Below, piece by piece: positions 43,131-50,723 of a stretch of 64,000 bases of DNA. Numbering within the stretch: position 1 is the first letter of the stretch; the number at the start of each line of letters is the position of its first letter. The notes under the pieces are model-generated. The model did not search any database. It was not told where the DNA came from and saw only the letters and a program-made list of their open reading frames with translations. Source of the DNA: Thiomicrorhabdus sp. Kp2 (lineage in GTDB: Bacteria; Pseudomonadota; Gammaproteobacteria; Thiomicrospirales; Thiomicrospiraceae); the NCBI RefSeq assembly GCF_000478585.1, contig NZ_ARWI01000001.1, forward strand, positions 1,488,001 to 1,552,000, in the 5' to 3' direction. The position numbers were made by a program, and so were the translations under genes.

Positions 43131-45293
43131 CTAACTACTAAAATGGCGTTCTGCTATTTTTTGTACTTCTGGATAGTTGGTTTTACCTGTTCCTAAAATG
43201 GGTACTTGTTCCACTAAAATCACCGTTTTAGGAATCATGAGTTCTGAGACTTGTTTCTCTTTAGCGGCATCGGTTACCGTTTTACGGCTTAGGGTATTGT
43301 CATCGGTTACCAACACTAATTGCTCACCTTTACGCTCATCAGGCACGGCTACAACCACATGGTGACCTTCTGGGCTGGCTAGATTAATATAGGTTTCAAC
43401 GGCGGTAAGAGAGACCATCTCTCCACCAATTTTAGCAAAACGTTTAGCACGGCCTTTAATCCAAACATAACCGTCTTCATCCACATCAACAATATCGCCC
43501 GTATCGTGCCAGCCCTCTTTGGGTGGCTGTAATTTACCTGGTGCATCGGGCATTAAATAGCCCATCATAATATTTGGCCCTTTCACAAACAGACGACCAC
43601 CCTCTTCAATCCCTGGTACGGCTTCAAGACGATATTGCACGTTTGGCACAAACTGCCCTACTGAACCATTTTTGTAGCCCATTGGGGTGTTTACGGCCAA
43701 TACAGGAGTGGTTTCAGTTACTCCGTAGCCTTCAAAGATAGGCTGATGATATTTATCGGCATATAACGTTCTGGTTTCAGGGCGTAAACGCTCAGCACCC
43801 GCTACCAAGGCTTTTAGGCTGTAAAAGTCGTAAGAGTCGGCTTTTCGGGCGTAGCCGCTGTAAAAGGTATCGGTTCCAAAAATAAAGGTTGAATTGGTCT
43901 GATAGACCATCTCAGGCACGATGCCATAATGCACTGGCGAAGGGTATAAGAAGACTTTTGAGCCTTTTAAAATTGGCCAAAGCATCCCTGCCGTTAAGCC
44001 AAAACAGTGGAATGTGGGCAAGGCATTAAAGATTTTATCTTCAGAATAGATATTAAACATAGCGTTGATTTGTTCAATATTATTGATGATATTACTTTGT
44101 GATAATACCACCCCTTTTGGCATCCCTTCAGAACCCGAGGTAAAGAGAACGACCGCTTCAGAATCGGCTGATTTTTTATAACCTGCTAACGATTTTGGTG
44201 AAGTTACCAGGCCTGCTATTTTAGAAAACAGCGTAATTTGAGTGCGAACATCTTCTAAATATAAGAAGTTAACGTTTTCAGATAACCCTTCAATTAGGCC
44301 TTCTATTTCAAAGGCTTCTACAAACTTTTTAGAGGTAATAATGGTTTGCAGTTGTGCGGTTTCACAAGCGGAACGAATTGCGGCTTGGCCAGCTGTAAAG
44401 TTAATCATCGCTGGCACATAGCCATAGGCTTGTAATGCAAAGAAACTGGCTGGCATACCTGCCACATTAGGCAGCATTAAACCAACACGTTGCTCATCTT
44501 TTAAGTTTTTTTGCAGCGCCTTACCTAAAATCACCGAGGCTTGAGTGAGTTTCTTTAAACTCAATTTTTGGTCGTTAATATCCTCAACACAGATCTCTTT
44601 AGCAAAATAGTTCTGTTTTGCAGACACTAAACTGGCAAACAGAGAACGTTCAATCACAGAGGCGCTAAAGCTCGCATCACGTAACAGATTAAAAATAATC
44701 TGTTTGTAGTGTTTATGTTTTTCGTGGCTTTTTAATGATTTTTCTATTGAAACGGTCTGGTAAGGCTGAATATGTAGCTGGATTTTTGGAAACCACATAC
44801 GTTTTATAAAGGCGTATTTGGTGCCATCTAAATAAGAAAAACGGCTGCGAACCGCTCCACTAATATGAACCGGTAAAACGGCCGCCTTAGTTTTATCAGC
44901 AATTAAACCTGTACCTTCATACACTTTCATTAATGAACCTGTGGTGGTGATTCTTCCTTCTGGAAAAATCATACATTGCCGCCCTTTTTTAAGCTCATCA
45001 ATCATATGTTTAGCCGCGTATGGGCTGTGAATATCGACCTTAAAAAAGTGGCTCAGAGATAAAATAAAACGTTCATGCCACTTTTTTGTATGCGAGGTAT
45101 CCACCATAAAGGTGGTTTCTCCTGGTACAAATAGGTCTAATAGCGGGCCATCGAGTAAAGAAACATGGTTGGCAATAATTAAGACAGGACGTTCACTTTT
45201 TAGCGCATTTTGATAGTTTTCAATGCCACTGACTTCTACTCGATAAACCAGTTTGAATAACGTTTTTACAATTAATTTAAACAACCATTTCAT
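43131..45293 (-). CDS. aas: Bifunctional lysophospholipid acyltransferase / acyl-ACP synthetase Aas
   Basis: 720 residues from ATG 45293, chosen for AGGA 7 bases upstream and for the match in length to E. coli Aas; the frame also extends back to 45380. Residues 1-190 are a PlsC-type acyltransferase (ANHVSLLDG for HX4D, FPEGRITTTG). Residues 210-720 are an AMP-forming acyl-ACP synthetase (FTSGSEGMPKGV, EGYGVTETTP, WHDTGDIVDVDEDGYVW, LGTGKTNY). It re-acylates lysophosphatidylethanolamine brought in by LplT, whose gene lies 28 bases upstream of the longer frame. Confidence 0.93.
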   Translation of the reverse strand: MKWLFKLIVKTLFKLVYRVEVSGIENYQNALKSERPVLIIANHVSLLDGPLLDLFVPGETTFMVDTSHTKKWHERFILSLSHFFKVDIHSPYAAKHMIDELKKGRQCMIFPEGRITTTGSLMKVYEGTGLIADKTKAAVLPVHISGAVRSRFSYLDGTKYAFIKRMWFPKIQLHIQPYQTVSIEKSLKSHEKHKHYKQIIFNLLRDASFSASVIERSLFASLVSAKQNYFAKEICVEDINDQKLSLKKLTQASVILGKALQKNLKDEQRVGLMLPNVAGMPASFFALQAYGYVPAMINFTAGQAAIRSACETAQLQTIITSKKFVEAFEIEGLIEGLSENVNFLYLEDVRTQITLFSKIAGLVTSPKSLAGYKKSADSEAVVLFTSGSEGMPKGVVLSQSNIINNIEQINAMFNIYSEDKIFNALPTFHCFGLTAGMLWPILKGSKVFLYPSPVHYGIVPEMVYQTNSTFIFGTDTFYSGYARKADSYDFYSLKALVAGAERLRPETRTLYADKYHQPIFEGYGVTETTPVLAVNTPMGYKNGSVGQFVPNVQYRLEAVPGIEEGGRLFVKGPNIMMGYLMPDAPGKLQPPKEGWHDTGDIVDVDEDGYVWIKGRAKRFAKIGGEMVSLTAVETYINLASPEGHHVVVAVPDERKGEQLVLVTDDNTLSRKTVTDAAKEKQVSELMIPKTVILVEQVPILGTGKTNYPEVQKIAERHFSS

Positions 45294-45407
45294 CTGTTTT
45301 CCTACTTCTAAAACCCATCTTAAAATGAAAACCTCAACATCCTGCTGGCGAGCTATTGCAGGAGGAATTGAAGTCCCCATCTGAACTAATCACCGTTGAT
45401 TAGCCCG

Positions 45408-46730
45408 TTACCTATTTGCTTTAAACCGATTGCGATATAAAACCATGACCACCATCAAATTGAAGATGGCTAATAACATCAACATCTCTAATAAACTGAA
45501 ATCAAAAGAGAAACCAATCATTATTAAGAGTGCCGACAACACCATTAACAGTGCATTCATAATGTTATTTACCGCCACCATTCTAGCACGTAGCAGGCCT
45601 GGTGTATGCGTTTGCAAAAGCGTGTATAAAGGCACAATATACATACCGCCTAATACCGCTAAAATGGCTAGAAACACTAGAGATAAACTGGATGGAAAGT
45701 GGGTAATAAATTCAGTGACTGTGAACAATGTTTCATGTGAAACATTTAATGAAATGGCTGCTTTCTGATTATCTGCAGAAATGCTCCACACGGTTAAAAA
45801 CAGCATCACGGAAATACCTAACAACAAAACCCAATGCCATTTAATATGAGAATGAACGGGCATTAAACGCCCTATTAAAGCCGAACCGATAGCAATACCG
45901 ATTGAAAACAGGGTTAAAAACAGCATCACGACACCATCGTCTGCGTGCAGGTCATATTTGACCAATGCGGGTATTTGACTGAGCATAACCGCACCAATAA
46001 ACCAGAACCAGGAAATGGCTAATACCGAAAAAAACGCAACCTTATGAGTGCGGCTCTCTTGAACGATTTGATAAGTGCTTTTAAACCAGTTCCAATCTAT
46101 TTTTAAGCTCTTATCAAACGGTTTAGTTGGCACAACAAACAGGCTAAACAAGTACCCTAAAATGGCAATAAAAACTACCAGGCCTGCCATAATCCACAAG
46201 CCATCGTCTAATAAAACACCCATGCCCCCCACAATGGTACCGATTAATATCGCCAGAAAGGTTGAGCCACTAAACAGGCCATTGCCCTTCATAAGGTGCT
46301 TATCATTCAATATCTCAGGCAAAATGGAATATTTAATGGGGCCAAAAAATGCCGATTGTGATCCCATCAAAAACAGCGTGATAAACAGTAACCACAGGTC
46401 TTGGCTCAATAAAGCCATTGCACCTAAAAGCATAATTAAAATCTCAGCCAATTTAATCTTTTTAATCAGGAAACTTTTAGGGTAATGGTCAGCAATTTGG
46501 CCAGCAAAAGAAGAGAAGACAAAAAAAGGTAAAATAAAAAGACCTGCCGCTAGGGTAATCAAAAGTCCTGTATCGGTTGCGGAATCAGTCAGCTTAAAGG
46601 TGATAAGCATCACCATCGCATTTTTAAATAGATTGTCGTTAAAAGCGCCTAAAAATTGCACCCAAAACAGAGGATAAAATTGACGATTACATAACAAAAT
46701 AGTAGCGTTTTTTGGGGGTACGTTATTCAT
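45408..46730 (-). CDS. lplT: Lysophospholipid transporter LplT
   Basis: 440 residues with about 12 hydrophobic segments, an MFS protein. The opening FWVQFLGAFNDNLFKNAMVML is the signature of LplT, which flips lysophospholipids inward for Aas. About 40 residues longer than E. coli LplT, mainly in loops. aas follows on the same strand. A parS-like site (45729-45744) falls within the codons for NVSHETL. Confidence 0.92.
   Translation of the reverse strand: MNNVPPKNATILLCNRQFYPLFWVQFLGAFNDNLFKNAMVMLITFKLTDSATDTGLLITLAAGLFILPFFVFSSFAGQIADHYPKSFLIKKIKLAEILIMLLGAMALLSQDLWLLFITLFLMGSQSAFFGPIKYSILPEILNDKHLMKGNGLFSGSTFLAILIGTIVGGMGVLLDDGLWIMAGLVVFIAILGYLFSLFVVPTKPFDKSLKIDWNWFKSTYQIVQESRTHKVAFFSVLAISWFWFIGAVMLSQIPALVKYDLHADDGVVMLFLTLFSIGIAIGSALIGRLMPVHSHIKWHWVLLLGISVMLFLTVWSISADNQKAAISLNVSHETLFTVTEFITHFPSSLSLVFLAILAVLGGMYIVPLYTLLQTHTPGLLRARMVAVNNIMNALLMVLSALLIMIGFSFDFSLLEMLMLLAIFNLMVVMVLYRNRFKANR
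45729..45744. repeat. parS-like site (15/16)
   Basis: TGTTTCATGTGAAACA differs at one central base. Within lplT. Confidence 0.6.
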
Positions 46731-46806: not shown

Positions 46807-47502
46807 TTATATTTTGATGTAATTCCAACCAGAATTTAACCTATTAACCACCGTATCAATAGCAGGCATATCGTGCTTAACCTGCGGCATGATATTAATT
46901 GGTTTACCACTTTGTTTAGCGCGCTCTAAAGCCCTTTTGCAAGCAAGCAAAGCTAAATTATCGTACTTCTCAAGCAGTCGGTTTAATTCAGCACTATTTG
47001 GGTTATTGATATCAAACAGTTGTATGCCATCAGAATTCGATATTAACTCCACTTTTACATCAGTGGCAGCGGATTCCAACAAACTCTCAATCTCTATAAG
47101 TGCCTGAAGCTGTTTTTCTATTGAATCTGAATCTAAATGGACTAAATAGTTGGCTGGCCTATCCTGCTCGATAGCGGGACTCAAGCTATGGTTAACTGTG
47201 TAAACCTTCAATAGGCCTGCACCAAGTAGTAATCCAAAAAATAGAGACGCTACCGCTGCTTTAGGAAAAACCCAACCTTTATCATTGGTCAAATTTTGTT
47301 TATTTATGCTGTCACTATTGGTTTGAGGAATATCTGTTGTATAAGCCAAACGTACCTTATTTTTTACCAGGTTAAACTCTTCTAATTGGGCACGTAATTC
47401 AGGGTCGATTTCTAACGCTTTTTCTACTTCAATGGCCTCATCTCGGCTCAGTTCACCATCTATATAAGCATGTAATTGATAAGTCTCAATTGAGTGATTC
47501 AT
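46807..47502 (-). CDS. Anti-sigma factor with periplasmic DsrE-like domain
   Basis: 231 residues. The N-terminus (YQLHAYIDGELSRDEA) is a typical anti-sigma opening but has no zinc-binding Cys. One transmembrane helix spans about residues 79-101 (FPKAAVASLFFGLLLGAGLL). The C-terminal 110 residues are similar by eye to the two DsrE-family proteins encoded divergently: YLVHLDSDS, VELISNSDGIQLF, ALLACKRAL with C188 (the only Cys), then MP and LNSGWNYIKI. The domain should face the periplasm. It starts 3 bases after the sigma gene, with GGAG in front. Sensing of a thiol, polysulfide or partner protein is inferred; the fusion is not one recognised here as described. Confidence 0.8.
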   Translation of the reverse strand: MNHSIETYQLHAYIDGELSRDEAIEVEKALEIDPELRAQLEEFNLVKNKVRLAYTTDIPQTNSDSINKQNLTNDKGWVFPKAAVASLFFGLLLGAGLLKVYTVNHSLSPAIEQDRPANYLVHLDSDSIEKQLQALIEIESLLESAATDVKVELISNSDGIQLFDINNPNSAELNRLLEKYDNLALLACKRALERAKQSGKPINIMPQVKHDMPAIDTVVNRLNSGWNYIKI

Positions 47503-47504
47503 CT

Positions 47505-48077
47505 CTATCTCCGAAATGGAACGATATTCGATCCACGCTGTTCTATTTGTTTCATACGTTTAACTAAATTCTCTCTACCGCGAGAAATTCTACTCATCAC
47601 TGTGCCGATGGGTGTGCTAGTTATTTCAGCAATCTCTTGGTAACTAAACCCTTGTAAGTCCACCAATGCAATGGCTTCACGTTGCTCAAAAGGTAAGCTT
47701 GCCATCGCTTTAAATAAACACTCTGAATCTTGTTGAGCAATAAATTGTGTCTCACTGCATTCTTGAATAAAGAGCTCATCAATTTCTGTCTCATCAGCCC
47801 ACTGCCAACGTTTATTAAAACGCATTATATCCAAAAAGTGGTTACGCATTATCTTAACTAGAAATGCATCTAAATGCTCCAAACTTTCAATATCTATCGA
47901 CTTTTCTAACACTTTAAGAAAAGTCTCTTGAACAAGATCTTCAGCGACTGACGCCTGATGGCACCAAGCATATGCTAAGCGATATAGGTTTTGATGCTTT
48001 TGTGCTAACAGAGCATTAAGTTGTCGCTTTTTCTTTGTGTCGCCAAACAAGTTTGCAACCTGAGTCATTAATATCAT
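47505..48077 (-). CDS. ECF-family RNA polymerase sigma factor
   Basis: 190 residues. Region 2 (YRLAYAWCHQASVAEDLVQE, FLVKIMRNHFLDIMR) and region 4 (LPFEQREAIALVDLQGFSYQ, EIAEITSTPIGTVMSRISRG) are both intact. Start at ATG 48077; ATG 48068 is possible. It is followed at once by its anti-sigma factor, the usual arrangement, and faces the dsrE-dsrE-porin genes across a 208-base gap, which are the obvious first targets. Confidence 0.93.
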   Translation of the reverse strand: MILMTQVANLFGDTKKKRQLNALLAQKHQNLYRLAYAWCHQASVAEDLVQETFLKVLEKSIDIESLEHLDAFLVKIMRNHFLDIMRFNKRWQWADETEIDELFIQECSETQFIAQQDSECLFKAMASLPFEQREAIALVDLQGFSYQEIAEITSTPIGTVMSRISRGRENLVKRMKQIEQRGSNIVPFRR

Positions 48078-48106
48078 TTTGATGTCTTATTAAAATTAGC
48101 CTTTTT

Positions 48107-48120
48107 TCGATACTAATCGA
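48107..48120. promoter_or_regulatory. Short inverted repeat upstream of the sigma gene
   Basis: TCGAT (48107-48111) and ATCGA (48116-48120) around ACTA, 30-43 bases upstream of the sigma start. Possible operator; weak because the arms are short. Confidence 0.25.
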
Positions 48121-48211
48121 TAAAGTTTTTTTTGTAAAACCTTTTATATATTAGCAAGTTACGATATTAATTATGCTGTTAAGCCAATAAGTTATTTTAT
48201 TTAAAATTAAT

Positions 48212-48237
48212 GGAATAAAACATTTCATTCAAACGTT
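48212..48237 (+). promoter_or_regulatory. Candidate ECF-type promoter for the dsrE-porin genes
   Basis: GGAATA (48212-48217) and CGTTTA (48234-48239 region) are separated by 16 bases, resembling the GGAAC...CGTT form of many ECF promoters. It lies about 50 bases before the first DsrE gene. No equally good copy was found before the sigma gene on the other strand. Confidence 0.3.
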
Positions 48238-48285
48238 TAAAGGTTAAGCGCGCCAAATTTGATTCAACTTTTACAAGGAAGATAC

Positions 48286-48744
48286 ATGCAAAAATTATTT
48301 ACCCAAAACTTAATAGGCCTGTTGCTAAGTCTATTTGTTTGTTTACCAAGTTACGCTGCTCAAAAAGAAGCCCCATTGCCCGATACTTTTGCAGAAAACA
48401 AAGTGGTACTTCAAATTAGCGATAGTGATCCTTTCAAACAAACATTGGTACTCAATGTGGCTGGCAACTTACAAAGATACTATGGAGAACAAAATGTGGA
48501 TATTGAAGTGGTTGCTTTTGGGCCTGGAGTAAGACTGATGTTTGATGGCAATGCCAATACCGACCGCATAAATAACTTGATTGCCCATGGCGTGCGCTTT
48601 AGCGCTTGCGAAAATACCATTGACAATATGGCAAAAAAACTCGGCCATAAACCCAAAATTCAAAACAGTGTCACTACCGTTCCTGCTGGTGCAGGCCGTA
48701 TTTTGCAGCTCAATAAAGCGGGTTGGCAAATTCTTAAACCTTAA
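48286..48744 (+). CDS. Secreted DsrE-family protein 1
   Basis: 152 residues from ATG 48286 (AAGGAAG 4 bases upstream; an earlier ATG at 48259 lacks this). A signal peptide ends near PSYAA (about residue 24). The mature part fits the periplasmic DsrE-like family (COG1416 type): VVLQISDSDPF, VEVVAFGPGVRLM, HGVRFSACENT with C108, then TTVPAGAGRILQLNKAGW. DsrE proteins bind or relay sulfur on a conserved Cys in several systems, but this secreted branch has no known function. Followed after 17 bases by a paralogue. Confidence 0.85.
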   Translation: MQKLFTQNLIGLLLSLFVCLPSYAAQKEAPLPDTFAENKVVLQISDSDPFKQTLVLNVAGNLQRYYGEQNVDIEVVAFGPGVRLMFDGNANTDRINNLIAHGVRFSACENTIDNMAKKLGHKPKIQNSVTTVPAGAGRILQLNKAGWQILKP

Positions 48745-48761
48745 CCTTATGAGAAATCATC

Positions 48762-49250
48762 ATGCATAAAATCAAACAAATATTGCCATTTATTTTCTTA
48801 ATTGCATTGATCAGTCAATCCACACTCATCATGGCGGCAAATGAACGATATGCCAAACAAAAAGTGGTTTATCACATCAACTATGATGACGCCAAAAAGC
48901 AGTCTAGCACATTAAGAAATATTGAAAATCATATCAATGCAGTGGGTGCGGACAATTTAGAAATCCGAGTAGTGTTACATGGCGATGGTCTCTCTTTAAT
49001 CATTAAACCTGAAGCCTTAAACGATGTGCCAAGATTCAAACACGCCAATGCCAATCAAGTGATGGCACAAAAAATTGATAAGTTAAAACTTCAAGGCGTC
49101 AATTTTAATGTGTGTGCAAATACCGTAAAAGGGCGAAATGTAGATACTGAAAAACACCTTTACGATGTATCTAAAGAAGACATAGTGCCAAGTGGTGTGG
49201 CCGAGTTAGCTCATTTACAAAGCCAGGGTTTTACCTACCTTAGACCTTAA
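48762..49250 (+). CDS. Secreted DsrE-family protein 2
   Basis: 162 residues with a signal peptide (LPFIFLIALISQSTLIMAA). The mature domain matches its neighbour in layout: KVVYHINYDD, LEIRVVLHGDGLSLI, QGVNFNVCANT with C118 as its single conserved Cys, then DIVPSGVAELAHLQSQGF and YLRP at the end. It differs enough from protein 1 to be an old duplication. Possible partner or competitor of the anti-sigma DsrE domain. Confidence 0.85.
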   Translation: MHKIKQILPFIFLIALISQSTLIMAANERYAKQKVVYHINYDDAKKQSSTLRNIENHINAVGADNLEIRVVLHGDGLSLIIKPEALNDVPRFKHANANQVMAQKIDKLKLQGVNFNVCANTVKGRNVDTEKHLYDVSKEDIVPSGVAELAHLQSQGFTYLRP

Positions 49251-49326
49251 AGTAAAAGACATATAAACATAAAAAAATAGAACAAAAAATAAAACAAAAA
49301 ACAAGAAATAATCAAAGAGGATTAAC

Positions 49327-50616
49327 ATGTTTAACAAACCATATACCTTCAAAAAATCGGCCATTTTAATGGCATTGACCTGTGCCATGAGTACACAATC
49401 GGTTCAGGCTGCAAACTGGCTGATGCTTCAAGGAACTGAAAAAGCAGATCAAGCACCCAGAGCTAAAGTATGGGGTTTTGCCCAAATTGACTATCAACAA
49501 ACGGATGACACCACCATTCAAGCGGGCCCTAACGCGGGTAAAAAAGCGGCGTTTAACCAAATGCAACCGCAATTAACAACAGCGAGTGGCTTTAATGTAA
49601 AACGTGCACGTATTGGGGTGAGAGGTGCAAACTTTCCTTTAGACAAAAATGTGAACTACTTCCTAATGGCTGAATTTGGTAATAATGGAATTACAACGGG
49701 TGAAAGCGGTTCACAGGGTCAATTAACGGATGCCAGCGTGACGCTTAACCATATTGAAGGGGCACGTGTTCGTGTAGGATTATTTAAAACACCTGGTTCT
49801 GAAGAGTCGTTTAAAGGCATACCCGTTTTCAATTATGTTAATTTTACCAATGGAACAGATCGCCTTTTAATTGAAAGAAAAATTGATACCAGCGGTGTTA
49901 GAACCGATCCCGCTTTTGCGGTACGCGATACGGGAATACAGGTTTTTGACACTTTTAAACAAGGTGACTGGGAGCACAGTTATGCCATTATGTATGGTAA
50001 TGGTAATGGCTTAGCTCTCTCTGATGATGATAAAAACAAAGACCTTTATTTGTATGCTTCTACTGAAAAAGTGTTCAATAACACACAAGGGCCAAGACGT
50101 CAGAGTCTTAAATTATATGCTTGGTCGCAAGATGGTAAACGCACCTATGGAACCGATGAGTACAATCGAGATCGTGCTGGGGTTGGTATGACCTATTTTG
50201 ATGGTAAATATCGTTTGGCGGCAGAGTACTTTACGGCGGACGGAATGATATTTGGTGGCCCAGCAGGTGGTGTAGCTGGTAATCCTTTAACTGTTTTCAC
50301 TGATCAAAAAGCAACAGCTTATCAGCTAGACTTTGGTTATCGCATCAAGCCTAATATTGAATTAAATGCTCGATACGATGTTTTAGATAGTGCAACCGAA
50401 ACAGATATTCAAACGGGCACAAATGGCGATAAACGTCGTTTATTCACCACAACCACTTTAGGTGCTCAGTACTTCTTTAATAAGAAAACATCTGTACGCT
50501 TAAACTACGAAATTCGTAACTTAGAAGCGCCAGATGCCCCTTCGAGCGCACCTGTGCATGATATTTTAGATGGTTTGGATAACCGTGTTTCAGCGCAGGT
50601 TATGATGGTTTTTTAA
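49327..50616 (+). CDS. OprO/OprP-type outer membrane porin
   Basis: 429 residues with a signal peptide (ILMALTCAMSTQSVQAA). The mature chain has alternating beta-barrel character: VWGFAQIDYQQ, FNVKRARIGVRG, YFLMAEFGNNG, RVRVGLFKTPGSEES, and a C-terminal phenylalanine (SAQVMMVF) as in porins. The family includes phosphate- and polyphosphate-selective porins, but the solute here is unknown. It lies 76 bases after the second DsrE gene and ends with a terminator, so it is probably the last gene of that operon. Confidence 0.85.
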   Translation: MFNKPYTFKKSAILMALTCAMSTQSVQAANWLMLQGTEKADQAPRAKVWGFAQIDYQQTDDTTIQAGPNAGKKAAFNQMQPQLTTASGFNVKRARIGVRGANFPLDKNVNYFLMAEFGNNGITTGESGSQGQLTDASVTLNHIEGARVRVGLFKTPGSEESFKGIPVFNYVNFTNGTDRLLIERKIDTSGVRTDPAFAVRDTGIQVFDTFKQGDWEHSYAIMYGNGNGLALSDDDKNKDLYLYASTEKVFNNTQGPRRQSLKLYAWSQDGKRTYGTDEYNRDRAGVGMTYFDGKYRLAAEYFTADGMIFGGPAGGVAGNPLTVFTDQKATAYQLDFGYRIKPNIELNARYDVLDSATETDIQTGTNGDKRRLFTTTTLGAQYFFNKKTSVRLNYEIRNLEAPDAPSSAPVHDILDGLDNRVSAQVMMVF

Positions 50617-50691: not shown

Positions 50692-50723
50692 GCCTTTACA
50701 CTTTAAGGTGTAAAGGCTTTTTT
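50692..50723 (+). terminator. Rho-independent terminator after the porin gene
   Basis: GCCTTTACAC (50692-50701) pairs perfectly with GTGTAAAGGC (50708-50717), followed by TTTTTT. Confidence 0.88.

Follow-up and report, generated by a model that had tools for sequence, protein, structure and literature searches.

Class I anti-σ factors with periplasmic sensor domains, such as RseA, RsiV, and CnrY/CnrX, link a cytoplasmic anti-σ domain through one membrane helix to an extracytoplasmic sensing part. To our knowledge, little is understood of how sulfur-oxidizing bacteria detect reduced sulfur while it is still outside the cytoplasm. Here, we describe a locus of Thiomicrorhabdus sp. Kp2 which encodes an extracytoplasmic function (ECF) σ factor and an anti-σ factor of the same predicted layout, in which, unlike in these proteins, a DsrE domain with a single invariant Cys forms the sensing part and free homologs of this domain are the probable regulated output. 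The locus lies in a 64,000-nucleotide stretch (positions 1,488,001 to 1,552,000 of contig NZ_ARWI01000001.1, or G000:C1:1488001-1552000; hereafter, the window) of a one-contig, 2.73-Mb genome and is a unit of five genes: those for σ and anti-σ on the minus strand and, divergent on the plus strand, dsrE-1, dsrE-2, and a porin gene. We lean, if only slightly, toward the view that a periplasmic single-Cys sensor of reactive sulfur gates the σ factor, which would induce periplasmic DsrE proteins and the porin.

The sulfite-responsive ECF26 systems, such as S. meliloti RpoE4 and Starkeya novella SigE, resemble this locus in several respects. Like here, an ECF σ factor is paired with a co-transcribed anti-σ factor; according to the passages of the source available to us, their promoter consensus is GGAAT at −35 and CGTC at −10 (PMC6527743), close to the elements described below, in which the −10 of the window and its genus reads CGTT. 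They respond to a sulfur compound in a sulfur-metabolizing bacterium, a likeness insofar as the signal here, too, would be such a compound. The same passages call unknown the step by which the anti-σ factor senses sulfite and σ is released (PMC6527743). The targets differ: ECF26 controls sulfite-oxidizing enzymes, whereas in the window the divergent operon is dsrE-dsrE-porin, a transporter gene of the MFS type follows the anti-σ gene, and no sulfite oxidase gene lies beside the σ gene.

The DsrE/MTH1491 family (PF02635), which we take to be COG1416-like, shares its fold and the position of its Cys with the fused domain, but the structures solved for it are of free proteins. The DsrE fold is also that of Allochromatium DsrEFH and E. 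coli TusBCD, and there, too, several paralogs are encoded together; these are, however, cytoplasmic sulfur-transfer complexes, whereas the proteins described here are predicted to be exported or membrane-anchored and coupled to transcription. Both halves of the system are known, class I anti-σ factors with varied sensor domains and DsrE proteins; what is new is their combination, the Cys rule, the promoter, and the spread. A preliminary description of the window, made from its letters and open reading frames, knew of no system of this form, and the open-access literature agrees: we found in it no description of a DsrE-bearing anti-σ/ECF system and no large ECF reclassification that treats a DsrE domain. 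Two apparent links were rejected: “DsrE” in PMC3511301 is actually DsRed in the reference list, and the available sections of PMC10512742 treat STAS domains and DsrE separately. The available passages on the Riftia symbiont report an abundant porin and are silent on this gene set (PMC7787665); those of PMC13047784, PMC6934394, and PMC7406223 hold no description of this system.

A DsrE Domain Fused to an Anti-σ Factor

Is the C-terminal part of the anti-σ factor a DsrE domain? Both Pfam matches of the window protein are N-terminal (zf-HC2, 23.1 bits against a cut-off of 22.2; RseA_N, E 0.0022, below its cut-off), and PF02635 finds no match in this sequence alone at E up to 1; because the Pfam model misses it, membership in the DsrE superfamily rests on profile and fold comparison. 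Aligned by hhalign, the anti-σ domain (50 sequences) matches DsrE-1 (24 sequences) with a probability of 99.4 and E 1.5e-21, and DsrE-2 (17 sequences) with a probability of 98.0 and E 1.8e-13; the domain alignments (A1, A2) hold 50 of 54 rows, L037 and three near-copies being left out, and the DsrE-1 alignment (A3) holds the window protein and 23 of 26 DsrE-1-like sequences, without L066, L081, and L082. DsrE-1 itself falls under the Pfam DsrE cut-off (20.3 versus 22.7 bits); as a phmmer query against the neighborhood genes, it retrieves several anti-σ orthologs, down to 3e-10. When compared with all PDB sequences, the anti-σ domain profile finds MTH1491 (1l1s) at 2.5e-19 and ST0148 (2pd2) at 4.1e-12.

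The fold points the same way. The AlphaFold model of the anti-σ factor (mean pLDDT 85.7; block means 89-98 over residues 121-231) matches 1l1s with Z 18.1 and an rmsd of 1.6 over 110 residues, followed by other DsrE-family structures (2pd2, 17.9; YchN, 14.0; 2hy5_A, the DsrE of DsrEFH, 13.2; 2d1p_A of TusBCD, 12.8); the best match outside the family reaches Z 7.9, and Foldseek concurs. Chance resemblance and a different C-terminal fold are ruled out by the profile comparison, the PDB profile match, and the structural matches. Judged from sequence profiles and the model, residues 116-231 are a true DsrE domain. The preliminary description had seen by eye that the domain resembles the two secreted DsrE proteins, and had held that a structure prediction giving another fold would speak against this; the likeness proves to be homology, and the predicted fold is that of DsrE.

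The N-terminal domain, of the zf-HC2/RseA_N type and helical in the model, is that of a class I anti-σ factor. It is found with other partners: three alphaproteobacterial anti-σ factors (L213-L215), which adjoin 3 of 25 listed plasmid-borne relatives of the σ factor and served as controls, match the N-terminal profile in a search of six sequences (E 2e-10 to 4e-15) yet show no DsrE domain: with the C-terminal profile, just one of them gives a match, at E 1, and their three σ factors score better by chance (0.0067 to 0.51). The same anti-σ domain thus occurs with another sensor domain. Plasmid records contain no relative of the anti-σ factor at E 1e-3.

How often did the fusion arise? A tree was built from 73 chosen DsrE domains, 32 of them fused; one branch (99/95 support, present in 200/200 bootstrap trees) separates all 32 from the rest, and the free neighboring DsrE proteins form several groups outside. 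The alignment is short (125 columns), and the tree leaves its deep splits open and brings some long branches together; the grouping of the fused domains is consistent with a single fusion.

One Cysteine per Domain

All 106 distinct anti-σ DsrE domains have exactly one Cys, and it is always C188 (L037, an N-terminal fragment, is left out of the Cys counts). C188 falls in one alignment column with C108 of DsrE-1 and C118 of DsrE-2, which is also the common position of the DsrE active-site Cys; among the free DsrE proteins, the last 118 residues contain a single Cys in 121 of 123 distinct sequences. Other residues are kept as well: W226 in all 106 fused domains, H122 in 103, Y228 in 102, G159 in 100, and N156 in 93. 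In the model, H122 is within strand 119-123, N156 just after strand 151-155, and C188 just after strand 183-187; to judge from these strand ends, the three side chains probably line one pocket. Of the shared features listed in the preliminary description, the single Cys in the same place in all three proteins and the GW/GF-x-Y/I ending hold, the latter as W226 and Y228; the “later conserved Pro” is not general, as only 25 of the 106 domains have Pro there (Ser in 44, Thr in 26).

What could a lone Cys do? With one Cys per domain, an intramolecular disulfide is excluded, and a carrier or adduct site would fit. The sub-threshold RseA_N likeness of the N-terminus recalls the RseA cascade, and on this view the fused domain would be a DsrE-fold scaffold only, with σ release left to a standard envelope-stress protease cascade that has nothing to do with sulfur. 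We consider this very improbable: C188 and W226 are invariant and H122, N156, and G159 nearly so, the partner genes belong to the same DsrE family, and the system is associated with sulfur oxidizers.

Conserved Gene Set

A search of 142 relatives gave a match to the anti-σ factor in 51, at least two of which (G071 and G121) look like free DsrE from the matched range. One conserved pattern, scanned over the genomes of 84,980 species, led to 92 relatives; of these, 80 loci were studied, and 63 hold the anti-σ gene as called. Locus counts below use these 63; the other 17 lack a complete anti-σ gene, being fragments, split genes, or missing calls (L095, L100, L103, L104, L131, L157) or free DsrE (L158-L168). 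Genes labeled as free dsrE in the loci may include anti-σ genes truncated at contig ends. The σ gene is adjacent to the anti-σ gene in 60 of 63 loci; no adjacent σ gene was called in the remaining three, L146, L149 (contig start), and L154 (overlapping gene calls). A free dsrE gene is present in the fetched stretch of 58 of 63 loci; of the five without, four are near a contig end, and L144 is not. In the Sedimenticola loci (L119, L122, L134, L152, L156), dsrE is located 3′ of the anti-σ gene on the same strand. The preliminary description had made its proposal depend on the co-occurrence of these genes in related genomes, and they do co-occur: host genera include Thiomicrorhabdus, Sedimenticola, Sulfuricella, Sulfuriferula, Sideroxydans, Thiohalomonas, and Thiogranum, and the spread of the gene set over many loci and genomes rules out a quirk of one genome.

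Among 422 flanking genes, no conserved surroundings with a sulfur function were found; the largest recurrent neighbor families, in 12 and 10 loci, look lineage-specific by eye and are hardly annotated (one is a phosphoesterase). At E 1e-20, 398 genomes drawn from the phylum yielded full-length anti-σ matches in three, all of the same class, and eleven further genomes have partial matches from profile position 53 or beyond, which were taken as free DsrE.

Several loci depart from the common pattern. Flavobacteriia and a few others have free DsrE of this family (L158-L168), and the stretches fetched around these genes contain no σ system. The anti-σ gene of Thiomicrorhabdus sp. NP51 (L095) is split over two reading frames, by a real break or an assembly error, and so is that of the matching record L037. 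One genome (G140) carries three pairs of σ and DsrE-bearing anti-σ genes (L051, L056, L063); dsrE and porin genes are beside the first, and a groEL-like gene, named from its sequence, is beside the third.

Promoters and Likely Output

Many of the divergent regions have GGAATA-N16-CGT(T/C) in common, and a looser form, GGAAT-N16..18-CGT, faces dsrE or another divergent gene in 23 of 30 regions and the σ gene in 8 of 30. In a larger collection of loci, 27 of 49 regions have GGAAT-N16..18-CGT(C/T) ahead of the divergent dsrE, where dinucleotide shuffles give a mean of 0.5 and at most 2; ahead of the σ gene, 29 of 63 regions have it, against a shuffle mean of 0.6 and at most 4. All told, these loci hold 94 sites over 1.41 Mb on both strands, and the number outside the upstream regions is about that expected at equal base frequencies, roughly 32. 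The 49- and 63-region sets are not fully independent, because the pattern was derived partly from the same genomes; by name, 18 of the 27 loci with a dsrE promoter are outside the genus of the window and its nearest metagenome-assembled genomes (MAGs). In the window, the ECF-type site in front of dsrE-1 (Table 1) adds to the account of the preliminary description.

No such site faces the σ gene there; a σ70-like one does. The region has 3 σ70-like sites against 1.6 in shuffles, and the 12 bases of this one are identical in L068-L071 and 11 of 12 in L073, and it is not found in other loci of the genus. Read from these motifs, a housekeeping promoter probably supplies σ in the lineage of the window, where σ would drive the dsrE-porin genes; in other lineages it probably also drives itself. 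Does it reach further? Across the whole genome, two promoter patterns occur at 3 and 2 sites, and their reversed controls at 4 and 5; as the counts do not exceed those of the controls, no regulon is claimed beyond the dsrE site.

If free DsrE proteins are the main output of the promoter, they may also act on the sensor. In the principal alternative to Cys chemistry, the fused domain is mainly a docking site, to which free DsrE proteins bind as hetero-oligomers, so that their loading or abundance rather than the chemistry of C188 sets σ release. The presence of free dsrE in 58 of 63 loci fits this, as does a feedback by binding through a promoter that makes these proteins; the family forms heterohexamers, and the structural matches include DsrEFH (2hy5) and the TusBCD heterohexamer (2d1p). 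Cys-less members occur in DsrE-family complexes, however, and docking alone would tolerate loss of the Cys, whereas C188 is kept in 106 of 106 domains, beyond the needs of a docking surface. We judge docking as the main mode unlikely, though well within reason; the evidence does not separate it from C188 chemistry, and both may apply.

Association With Sulfur Oxidation

The distribution of the system was assessed in 369 genomes drawn evenly from the class, with the anti-σ factor counted at E < 1e-30 and SoxB and DsrA at E up to 1e-40. The anti-σ factor is present in 67 genomes from 40 families. SoxB is found in 65 of these 67 and DsrA in 52; among the other 302 genomes, the numbers are 88 for SoxB (Fisher 6.8e-27) and 65 for DsrA. 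At least one of the two occurs in 67 of 67, against 99 of 302, all three comparisons being uncorrected for phylogeny. Counted by family, SoxB occurs in 39 of the 40 with the anti-σ factor and in 41 of an assumed 141 others, the total of 181 families in the sample being taken from family labels. One genome with SoxB and DsrA matches, G323, was left out of the 67 (6e-32, positions 69-215 only), and G318 has a fragment at a contig start. Curated cut-offs are exceeded by 148 of 153 SoxB and 111 of 117 DsrA matches; the E. coli control matches SoxB below the cut-off, and G159, counted as SoxB-positive, has a partial gene below it.

Single-Cys sites can react with metals and oxidants, and C188 could on these grounds be a general thiol switch or a soft-metal site that answers to oxidative stress, mercury, arsenite, or copper, with sulfur compounds not being the signal. 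Another secreted DsrE protein of the same genome adjoins a multicopper oxidase, and DsrE/F-like genes of Thioalkalivibrio respond to arsenite in the passages available (PMC6620896). Yet a lone Cys cannot form the intramolecular disulfide, and restriction to genomes with SoxB or DsrA (67 of 67) is unexpected of a general stress sensor; we find this alternative quite unlikely, less so than the scaffold considered above.

Gene Organization and Neighboring Features

The five genes stand at the coordinates given in the preliminary description (Table 1). The σ and anti-σ genes are separated by 2 bases. The stretch searched for terminators has 4 terminator-like sites, against 1.5 in shuffles.

Table 1. 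Features of the σ/anti-σ/dsrE/porin locus, in window positions.
Feature	Position	Strand	Basis
Anti-σ factor, 231 aa	46807..47502	-	N-terminal zf-HC2 (Pfam) and AlphaFold model
Anti-σ residues 1-60, helical anti-σ domain, no Cys	47323..47502	-	zf-HC2, RseA_N; model helices 7-14, 20-32, 34-56
Anti-σ residues 82-103, hydrophobic, putative membrane helix	47194..47259	-	Sequence and low-confidence model helix 82-103
Anti-σ residues 116-231, DsrE domain	46810..47157	-	Profile comparison, fold, tree, conserved residues
Codon of C188, sole Cys of the anti-σ DsrE domain	46939..46941	-	Cys in 106/106 distinct domains
ECF σ factor, 190 aa	47505..48077	-	Sigma70_r4_2 3.6e-16, Sigma70_r2 6.3e-10
σ70-like promoter TTTACA-N17-TAGTAT facing the σ gene	48110..48138	-	Motif search
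ECF-type promoter GGAATA-N16-CGTTTA facing dsrE-1	48212..48239	+	1 site in window, 0.03 expected by chance
DsrE-1, 152 aa, N-terminal signal sequence, C108	48286..48744	+	Sequence, profile comparison
DsrE-2, 162 aa, N-terminal signal sequence, C118	48762..49250	+	PF02635 6.4e-13
Outer-membrane porin, Porin_O_P family	49327..50616	+	PF07396 26.1 bits, cut-off 20.9
Intrinsic-terminator-like hairpin and T tract 3′ of the porin gene	50692..50717	+	11 pairs, TTTTTTGTTT

The anti-σ gene is followed, at 43131-46730 of the window, by genes for a lysophospholipid-transporter-like MFS protein and an acyltransferase/AMP-ligase-like protein (the latter named from its sequence), relatives of which recur in 5 of 63 loci (L089-L093). 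The same genome has a second σ-DsrE neighborhood of a different kind (G000:C1:2664000-2679000; L083:1658-7819): in order, soxB, a transposase-like gene (by sequence), a gene for a DUF6428 protein with a Cys-rich end, one for a SigZ-type σ factor with a C-terminal Cys pair, and one for another secreted DsrE protein. A further secreted DsrE protein adjoins a CueO-like multicopper oxidase (L081:7319-9509).

A Model for Sulfur-Dependent σ Release

How might a periplasmic sulfur compound reach the σ factor? The predicted topology of the anti-σ factor is a cytoplasmic anti-σ domain, one membrane helix, and a periplasmic DsrE domain, and the N-terminal signal sequences of DsrE-1 and DsrE-2, judged by eye, suggest that both are secreted. 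The sensing site would be C188, with H122 and N156 at the neighboring strand ends, and a reactive intermediate of periplasmic sulfur oxidation would modify it, leaving a sulfane-sulfur, thiosulfonate, or sulfite adduct. Tetrathionate is the candidate with the best biochemical precedent: in DsrE3A of Metallosphaera cuprina it modifies a Cys to Cys-S-thiosulfonate, according to the passages available (PMC4175335). Once its DsrE domain is modified, the anti-σ factor would release σ, directly or through cleavage, and the freed σ would act at the GGAAT-N17-CGT promoter to transcribe dsrE-1, dsrE-2, and the porin gene, as well as its own gene in many relatives. Free in the periplasm and with one conserved Cys each, the DsrE proteins would then accept or relay sulfur and reset the sensor, and the porin would pass sulfur anions through the outer membrane.

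In outline, this follows the preliminary description, in which the anti-σ domain is modified or bound by a reduced-sulfur species or a free DsrE protein and the released σ drives the dsrE-porin operon. That proposal is partly supported: its promoter step by the ECF-type site that recurs before dsrE, and its link to reduced sulfur by the restriction to genomes with SoxB or DsrA and by the one-Cys rule. The layout of the proteins and the circuit are read from sequence; signal and chemistry are inferred.

Several observations weigh against the model. The Sox/Dsr association ignores deeper phylogeny beyond the rough family count, and the 88 of 302 genomes which have SoxB and no anti-σ factor show the system to be dispensable for Sox-bearing life. 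Only 36 of the 63 loci show the porin gene, though some contigs stop short, and the exact promoter match is missing from 22 of 49 dsrE and 34 of 63 σ upstream regions. The invariant C188 could instead have a metal or structural role, and in the passages at hand the M. cuprina DsrE3A was unreactive with the other five sulfur compounds tested (PMC4175335). The likeness to ECF26 promoters is weak evidence, because many ECF promoters have GAA and GT motifs; moreover, not all ECF26 members respond to sulfite. Expression or biochemical data on any of these genes were not found in the open-access literature.

What would the system mean for its hosts? We see an even chance that a single fusion turned a sulfur-carrying periplasmic Cys into the input of a transmembrane transcription switch, through which these bacteria would read their periplasmic sulfur load directly, on a carrier tethered to the membrane, and answer it with more free carriers from the same family. 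If the model is true, the anti-σ factor would stand for a kind of periplasmic sensor that reads sulfur through a thiol and that 40 families of the class sample possess, and the system is open to study through a single residue (C188), a handful of genes, a short promoter, and a distribution that tracks Sox/Dsr. Periplasmic DsrE proteins may then be a regulated part of sulfur oxidation.

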